Assembly (NCBI GenBank): GCA_001872165.1
Contig: MNXK01000224.1
Span: forward strand, 1-6,633
Reading direction: 5' to 3'
Length of the DNA: 6,633 nt
From: Anaerolineae bacterium CG2_30_58_95
GTDB lineage: Bacteria > Chloroflexota > Anaerolineae > Anaerolineales > Villigracilaceae
The notes beneath the pieces were generated by a model, which was not told the origin of the DNA, did no database searches, and saw only the letters and a list, made by a program, of their open reading frames with translations. A program made the position numbers and the translations under genes. Positions 5,461-5,626 of the stretch are shown here, piece after piece. How positions within the stretch are numbered: position 1 is the first letter of the stretch; each line of letters begins with the position of its first letter.

Positions 5461-5474
5461 AGTCTGAGGCAAAA

Positions 5475-5558
5475 ATGACCAGCATCCGCTTCGCCAATAA
5501 TAACGATAATGATAATGATAATCGGCCTCCAGCCGTTGGGCGAAGCCTGTCCGGTTAG
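5475..5558 (+). CDS. Attenuator leader peptide with Asn/Asp codon run, upstream of aspS
   Basis: A 27-codon frame starts at ATG 5475, with TGAGG (5465-5469) five bases upstream. It ends at TAG 5556-5558, followed at once by an in-frame TAA. The peptide begins MTSIRFA and continues NNNDNDNDN (codons at 5496-5522: AAT AAT AAC GAT AAT GAT AAT GAT AAT), so nine consecutive codons read only Asn or Asp. Such a run of regulatory codons directly before a synthetase gene is the signature of ribosome-mediated attenuation, as in trp, his and pheST leaders. Here the ribosome would stall when charged tRNA-Asn or tRNA-Asp is scarce. The peptide itself probably has no function. It sits between the aspS promoter and the terminator, and its first codons contain RNA segment 1, the run begins exactly where segment 1 ends, and segment 2 lies later in the same frame. 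Confidence 0.85.
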   Translation: MTSIRFANNNDNDNDNRPPAVGRSLSG

Positions 5559-5616
5559 TAAGGTACGTATACCAACCAATCGCCCAACGCAATCCAGCGG
5601 AGGGCGATTTATTTTT
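5488..5616 (+). promoter_or_regulatory. Ribosome-mediated transcription attenuator controlling aspS
   Basis: Four segments pair in mutually exclusive ways. Segment 1 GCTTCGCC (5488-5495) pairs with GGCGAAGC (5539-5546) in segment 2; eight perfect base pairs enclose the Asn/Asp codons. Segment 2 CGTTGGGCGA (5534-5543) pairs with segment 3 TCGCCCAACG (5580-5589), a perfect ten-pair antiterminator. Segment 3 AATCGCCC (5578-5585) pairs with segment 4 GGGCGATT (5602-5609), the terminator stem, followed by a T-tract. Inference: a ribosome stalled at the start of the run (5496-5510) hides segment 1, frees 2 to pair with 3, and aspS is transcribed. A ribosome that reaches the stop at 5556 overlies the 3' end of segment 2, and after its release 1:2 can form, so the terminator wins. 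A small hairpin, GGTT/AACC plus GGTA/TACC (5553-5577), folds the spacer between 2 and 3. No T-box specifier or GGUGG-type antiterminator is visible. Confidence 0.85.
5578..5616 (+). terminator. Intrinsic terminator of the aspS attenuator
   Basis: AATCGCCC (5578-5585) and GGGCGATT (5602-5609) form an eight-pair stem, extended past an AA/GA internal loop by CGC (5588-5590) and GCG (5597-5599) around the loop AATCCA. TTTATTTTT (5608-5616) follows directly. It ends one base before the aspS Shine-Dalgarno site GGAGG (5617-5621), so it must be regulated rather than the end of the HicB-like gene; otherwise aspS could not be expressed from the upstream promoter. Confidence 0.85.
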
Positions 5617-5626
5617 GGAGGCGGCT

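Follow-up and report, generated by a model that had tools for sequence, protein, structure and literature searches.

Ribosome-mediated attenuators of trp, his, ilv, leu and pheST are known in Proteobacteria. Leaderless short ORFs encoding polycysteine reportedly attenuate operon expression in mycobacteria, to judge by the title of the study by Canestrari in 2020, as cited in PMC13236596. For Actinobacteria, candidate trp, cys and leu attenuators are described in the accessible part of PMC1262725. According to the corresponding part of a survey of 2010 (PMC2965389), Proteobacteria and Actinobacteria were the only groups with demonstrated leader peptides until that survey added a case from bacilli, namely the histidine leader peptides of hisS*/hisZ. 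The excerpt of a study on Shewanella classifies aspS as a ‘tRNA synthetase leader’ and gives no aspS peptide. Among the titles and abstract openings of the open-licence literature, which leave subscription journals largely uncovered, we recognised no leader-peptide attenuator for aspS, for Asn or for Chloroflexota, and the novelty of what follows is to that extent provisional.

Here we describe the leader of the aspS gene in a 6,633-nucleotide stretch of DNA (the whole stretch analysed, called the window below) from Anaerolineae bacterium CG2_30_58_95. In all likelihood this leader is a ribosome-mediated attenuator of the trp/his type, predicted to increase transcription of aspS, and likely that of asnS, under a shortage of charged tRNA-Asn or tRNA-Asp. 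Like the attenuators of trp, his, ilv, leu and pheST, it combines a short ORF of cognate codons with a competing antiterminator and intrinsic terminator. Unlike them, it occurs in another phylum, carries a run for two amino acids, Asn then Asp, between segments 1 and 2, and would control aspS together with asnS or gatAB; in addition, most of its homologs appear to be leaderless. With the hisS*/hisZ leaders, as the accessible part of that survey describes them, it shares a run of cognate codons before a gene of the synthetase type in bacteria that are neither Proteobacteria nor Actinobacteria, but the amino acid, the genes and the phylum differ. The mycobacterial polycysteine ORFs, compared by title only, are similar in being leaderless short ORFs of cognate codons that attenuate an operon, but they concern Cys instead of Asn/Asp, Tyr or Thr, as well as other genes and another phylum. 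T-box leaders (RF00230) also sense tRNA charging ahead of synthetase genes; however, they bind tRNA directly, without translation, whereas the aspS leader would make use of the ribosome.

The elements of the locus are given below with the evidence bearing on them; those without such a remark were read from the sequence itself.

5446–5454, plus strand: extended −10 promoter TGCTATAAT, with a predicted transcription start near 5461
5466–5469, plus strand: Shine–Dalgarno site of the leader ORF, GAGG
5475–5561, plus strand: leader peptide ORF with tandem stops, kept among homologs
5488–5495, plus strand: segment 1 (anti-antiterminator), partner 5539–5546; script check, covariation, duplex swap and folding
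5496–5522, plus strand: nine-codon Asn/Asp sensing run, NNNDNDNDN; sequence, codon counts in homologs and shuffles
5534–5546, plus strand: segment 2, holding the 5′ arm of the antiterminator (5534–5543) and the partner of segment 1 (5539–5546); script check and covariation
5578–5589, plus strand: segment 3, in which the 3′ arm of the antiterminator (5580–5589) overlaps the 5′ arm of the terminator (5578–5585); script check and covariation
5578–5609, plus strand: intrinsic terminator hairpin, with an outer stem of 8 bp and an inner CGC/GCG stem; covariation and folding
5608–5616, plus strand: T-tract of the terminator
5617–5621, plus strand: Shine–Dalgarno site of aspS, GGAGG, the aspS ATG being at 5627
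5627–6631, plus strand: aspS, aspartyl-tRNA synthetase (TIGR00459)

Every element named in an earlier, sequence-only reading of this DNA (promoter, Shine–Dalgarno site, 27-codon ORF, stops, three pairings and terminator) was found base by base where that reading had placed it, both by inspection of the sequence and by script. The leader peptide, MTSIRFANNNDNDNDNRPPAVGRSLSG, is encoded by 27 codons from the ATG at 5475 to 5555, followed by TAG (5556–5558) and TAA (5559–5561), and its sensing run is made up of six Asn and three Asp codons. The script check found perfect pairing between segments 1 and 2 (5488–5495/5539–5546, GCTTCGCC/GGCGAAGC), in the antiterminator (5534–5543/5580–5589, CGTTGGGCGA/TCGCCCAACG) and in the terminator (5578–5585/5602–5609, AATCGCCC/GGGCGATT). 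The antiterminator and the terminator share one strand and are mutually exclusive. Segment 2 lies within the leader ORF, where it encodes VGRS, and the intrinsic terminator sits between this ORF and aspS, the first structural gene.

Among 5000 Markov shuffles of the 450 nt upstream, no in-frame run of AAY/GAY codons exceeded five, compared with the nine seen. Folded alone, the terminator reaches −19.1 kcal/mol (z −5.8) and the antiterminator −21.5 kcal/mol (z −4.1), and in neither case was any of 200 shuffles as low; for the hairpin of segments 1 and 2 (−17.0 kcal/mol, z −2.4) four of 200 were. A chance origin of the ORF was rejected on the shuffles of the region upstream in the window together with the control on distant Chloroflexota presented below.

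The arrangement suggests how the leader would work. Stalling near the beginning of the run, a ribosome would cover segment 1, so that segments 2 and 3 would pair and RNA polymerase would read through. With ample charged tRNA, the ribosome would move on to the stop codon, which lies 12 nt beyond the antiterminator arm, and cover segment 2, allowing the terminator to form; with no ribosome on the leader, segments 1 and 2 would pair and the terminator would form as well. In the earlier reading, the run begins at the first base after segment 1, and this was taken as precisely the place from which a stalled ribosome would conceal that segment. Reckoned with usual ribosome footprint sizes, this proposal holds for stalling at codons 1–4, which would hide the whole of segment 1, and in part for codons 5–6, but not for codons 7–9, at which segment 1 would be exposed.

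The comparison with other aspS loci drew on the best loci of 30 of the 120 matching relatives and on the 80 best from a second search, over records titled Anaerolineae, Anaerolineales, Anaerolinea, Leptolinea or Chloroflexi/Chloroflexota. Once identical upstream regions had been dropped, 96 distinct loci remained (30 + 66, window included). A leader ORF, defined as a short ORF in which a stretch of seven residues contains four or more Asn/Asp, was found upstream of aspS in 73 of the 96 by script and in 71 after L044 and L083 had been removed by eye. The expectation that homologous leaders keep the short ORF and its Asn/Asp codons was thus confirmed at 71 of 96 distinct loci, a proportion that holds for the loci ranking highest in similarity to the aspS of the window rather than for a random sample. 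All 71 leaders have a terminator-like end of GGGC and a T-run, and the typical peptide reads MxxxxFANNNNNDNDDPxxVGRSFAG. The order of the run across aspS homologs is Asn early and Asp late.

When the 71 leaders were made into a covariance model, it recovered, at E <0.001, five of the 25 loci outside this set (23 without an ORF by the definition above and the two removed by eye), namely L040, L044, L017, L112 and L015; weaker Asn-containing ORFs are present behind TGCTATAAT in other excluded loci, for example L031, L067, L083 and L093. A search of 20 loci lacking a called leader found 6S RNA downstream of aspS in nine (L011, L045, L049, L052, L068, L093, L099, L100 and L103). Applied to the whole genomes of 121 relatives, the model gave a match at E up to 0.1 in 80, and in 77 of the 121 a match lay within 1 kb upstream of aspS. 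In three relatives the match was away from aspS: that in G041 is due to chance, G044 has its aspS split between contigs, and that in G055 is at an aspartokinase gene. A model match at L152, which lies within a coding frame, was rejected as chance. For the control, aspS was found in 115 of 121 genomes sampled across the phylum, 12 of them from the window's family, and 40 distant loci were hand-picked from the other 103 (three from the same class and 37 from other classes; one is only 278 nt long). Two of these 40 regions contain an ORF satisfying the definition alone, and none of the 40 combines it with a terminator-like end. A phylum-wide model search with strict filters matched 25 of 400 genomes, all of the window's family. 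Consequently, with the distant controls negative and the phylum-wide matches all within this family, the system is confined to one order in the genomes sampled.

Covariation was assessed on an alignment of 71 distinct leader rows, whose relatedness makes the shuffles overstate independence. Pairs are formed in 91.5% of the cells of the antiterminator and 91.9% of those of the terminator, with 31 double-change cells compared with 5.8 in shuffles for the former and 25 compared with 3.7 for the latter; neither value was reached in 500 shuffles. On two other measures, the five doubly changed pairs of the antiterminator were reached by 7 of 500 shuffles and its further pair types by 425 of 500, the corresponding figures for the terminator being 38 and 128 of 500. 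The pairing of segments 1 and 2 is formed in 72.4% of cells, and its 27 double-change cells (18.0 in shuffles) were reached by two of 500 shuffles and are exceeded by two slid versions of the same pairing, with 37 and 32. Because an alignment hides re-invented helices, this pairing was also submitted to a duplex-swap test on the 31 leaders with a non-canonical segment 2. The mean duplex energy of the native partners was −13.1, compared with −11.3 (s.d. 0.46) after swapping, and 0 of 10000 swaps were as low, which favours the pairing, although relatedness inflates this result. Of the covariation anticipated in all three pairings, that in the antiterminator and the terminator was therefore clearly recovered, and that between segments 1 and 2 was weaker. 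The order and spacing of the elements, which had likewise been expected to be conserved, are kept across the 71 leaders, with a median of 9 nt from the end of the run to the antiterminator arm and of 12 nt from the end of this arm to the stop codon. The kept ORF and codons, the co-varying antiterminator and terminator and the conserved spacing all support the interpretation of the leader as an attenuator.

The motif TGNTATAAT is present, without any change, upstream of 65 of the 71 leaders. In 50 leaders the ATG follows the −10 hexamer by 6–13 nt, and none of these has a Shine–Dalgarno-like motif. Such a motif is found in 10 of the 11 leaders with a gap of 16–21 nt, among them that of the window, which is not leaderless (gap of 20 nt, GAGG present); the remaining 10 of the 71, with a longer gap or an unclear hexamer, are without it. 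Since transcription usually starts about 7 nt past the −10 hexamer, most of the leader ORFs are probably leaderless, their start sites being predicted from the position of the −10 box.

The part of aspS contained in the window scores 455 bits, the cut-off of TIGR00459 being 374. The contig ends inside the gene, and contig C15 of the same genome, which overlaps it by 80 bases, carries the remainder. There, asnS (TIGR00457, 468.8 bits for a cut-off of 342.6) begins 76 nt past the aspS stop; the mixture of Asn and Asp codons therefore matches both synthetases. Adjacency of asnS can be assessed only where at least 400 nt past aspS are available, that is at 65 of the 71 leader loci and 22 of the 25 others, and asnS was found in the aspS flank in 26 of these 65 loci versus two of these 22. 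In each of five further genomes, chosen for a non-adjacent asnS or a doubled aspS (G011, G017, G048, G057 and G062), gatA and gatB follow aspS, both over their NCBIfam cut-offs, and asnS lies farther downstream in the same direction. As asnS is outside the flank at 39 of the 65 loci, and as in three of the five genomes the path from aspS or the gat genes to asnS holds opposite-strand frames of at least 100 aa (only in G057 and G017 is it free of them), asnS may be separate from the aspS transcript where such frames intervene. Two aspS genes are present in G017 (L157, contig C10), one before gatA–gatB and the other before asnS, and also in G036 (contig C23); every copy in these two genomes has its own model match, and one of the two copies may be non-discriminating. 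Just upstream of the promoter, the window contains a 114-aa ORF (5098–5439) with a weak match to a HicB-like antitoxin (PF15919, E 9e-5, below cut-off). On the minus strand, 3610–4869 encodes a GT87 family glycosyltransferase-like protein, and the two long minus-strand ORFs neighbouring it gave no Pfam match at E 0.001.

Leaders of similar layout are present at other genes. The asnA gene (TIGR00669, over cut-off) was found in four of the 121 relatives, and in all four it has a leader matched by the model built from aspS leaders only (E 1.4e-16 to 1.2e-6). The runs of these leaders consist of Asn, with a single Asp closing one of the four; a Fisher test on the codons, which were hand-counted and are non-independent, gave p 3.6e-4. 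At asnB there is a single weak model match (L150, E 0.023), with the peptide MNVNNNNANNAHDWAVGRSVRFFRR, before a 125-aa piece of the gene that matches TIGR01536 at 3e-25, below the full-length cut-off. The search for relatives of this asnB returned L150 and no other, so the asnB leader depends on one weak match. Three model matches were obtained at aspartokinase genes (E 8.5e-4, 0.044 and 0.092). A separate gene search and codon scan in 30 genomes of the family, performed without a shuffled control, gave 18 aspartokinase loci, 16 of them with a Thr-rich leader followed by a terminator-like hairpin; these leaders (L174–L189) often alternate Met and Thr, as in FGMTMTMTT and MTMTTTTS. Tyr leaders (YY or YYY) were found at tyrS in eight of 10 genomes (L218, L219, L221–L225 and L227), having been chosen, again without a shuffled control, among all ORFs behind TATAAT-like boxes. 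All eight lie 6–7 nt from TATAAT, and the five passing a stricter filter are followed by a terminator-like hairpin; one tyrS locus was named by TIGR00234. The promoter-based scan detected no leader with matching codons at valS or ileS, and no Trp-rich leader at trpS passed the filter. An FMN riboswitch is located near valS at L194, L195 and L198. The idea that the aspS leader belongs to a regulon is thus borne out by leaders with matching codons at asnA, aspartokinase and tyrS, and weakly at asnB.

Could the same features arise in another way? It is conceivable, although we consider it unlikely, that Asn alone is sensed and that the Asp codons are signal-free drift from Asn codons, from which they differ by one A-to-G change. 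Asn codons outnumber Asp codons 363 to 161 in the clusters of the 71 leaders and lead the run, Asp occupying its first position in 10 of 71, and the asnA leaders are almost purely Asn. However, at least one Asp codon is found in the cluster of 69 of the 71 aspS leaders, while three of the four asnA runs hold none, and the position of Asp is ordered rather than random: it is present at the tenth position or later in 13 of 14 cases. Binding of the leader RNA by a synthetase or another protein, with the ORF being incidental, would have precedents, as some synthetases regulate their own expression and the ThrRS of E. coli binds its own mRNA. The accessible part of PMC2965389 also names threonyl-tRNA synthetase among self-regulating synthetases. 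This explanation appears very improbable, given that the cluster is kept as codons, with 524 AAY/GAY codons versus five AAR/GAR (Lys/Glu) codons across the 71 leaders, and that protein binding does not predict a cluster whose identity changes with the downstream gene. The Asn/Asp cluster is conserved as codons, and its translation is predicted; on the same signature of 524 versus five, a plain terminator without coding was rejected. We attach just as little probability to the view that the short ORF encodes a small protein acting elsewhere and that the hairpin is a plain terminator. The conserved C-terminal VGRS would agree with it, but these four residues are what the antiterminator arm encodes, and that arm co-varies as RNA; moreover, a promoter-like element stands just before the ORF and the terminator just before aspS.

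Control of aspS by a T-box, or by another RNA binding tRNA or a metabolite, is contradicted so far and seems hardly credible, even though T-boxes are common in these genomes. Matches to RF00230 (E up to 0.001) were found in all 13 genomes searched and exceed the Rfam cut-off in 10; the window's own genome has four (contigs C76, C20, C9 and C163), one of them over the cut-off, and the other 12 have 5–8 each. Within 1 kb upstream, a T-box was found in 10 of 10 cases for ileS, 10 of 10 for pheS (examined for this count only) and nine of 10 for valS in ten genomes, compared with 0/10 for aspS, 0/10 for tyrS, 0/7 for aspartokinase and 0/16 for trpS; for this comparison one ileS, one valS, one tyrS and two trpS loci were named. 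One trpS copy may belong to a T-box operon, because a T-box lies about 1.6–1.8 kb upstream on the same strand in five of six loci (L212, L214–L217). Rfam gave no match at the gathering score anywhere in the window and, at the aspS leader, one at chance level (E 1.5) on the other strand, and the 40 distant Chloroflexota control regions contained no T-box at aspS. A T-box at aspS was rejected on the Rfam result and on its absence within 1 kb in the ten genomes. The sequence-only reading had ascribed T-boxes at synthetase genes to Firmicutes; the Chloroflexota studied here have them too, though not at aspS in any of ten genomes. The part of the 2008 T-box survey available to us reports that two Dehalococcoides have ile and trp T-boxes, and describes the Chloroflexi that it analysed as having no Asn-tRNA ligase; unlike these, the lineage of the window has asnS. 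With T-box matches of its own, the genome of the window would thus house the two kinds of sensor for tRNA charging side by side.

Ribosome-mediated attenuation therefore remains our preferred interpretation of the aspS leader. The mechanism is classical and very likely real here, and it is from it that we infer the cellular function. What appears to be new, provisionally, is the phylum, the dual Asn/Asp run placed before genes making both charged tRNAs and the wider regulon with matching codons, together with a design that is probably leaderless in most homologs, and the coexistence with T-boxes. With moderate confidence, we lean towards a broader proposal: this Chloroflexota lineage would possess a mostly leaderless attenuator regulon, with Asn-then-Asp runs at aspS with asnS or gatAB, Asn at asnA and asnB, Tyr at tyrS and Thr/Met at aspartokinase, beside the T-boxes of ileS, valS and pheS in the same cell, and the leader of aspS would take two inputs, sensing how far two tRNAs are charged, one after the other.

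If so, the leader-peptide principle would serve a synthetase operon in another phylum, with two amino acids in a single run. The presence of predicted attenuators and T-boxes in one genome makes it possible to ask why a given gene is equipped with one sensor or the other, and the leaderless design opens the question of how a leaderless ORF couples the first ribosome to RNA polymerase. The leaders would also offer a codon-based route to annotating regulons for Asn, Tyr and Thr in Anaerolineae that are uncultured.
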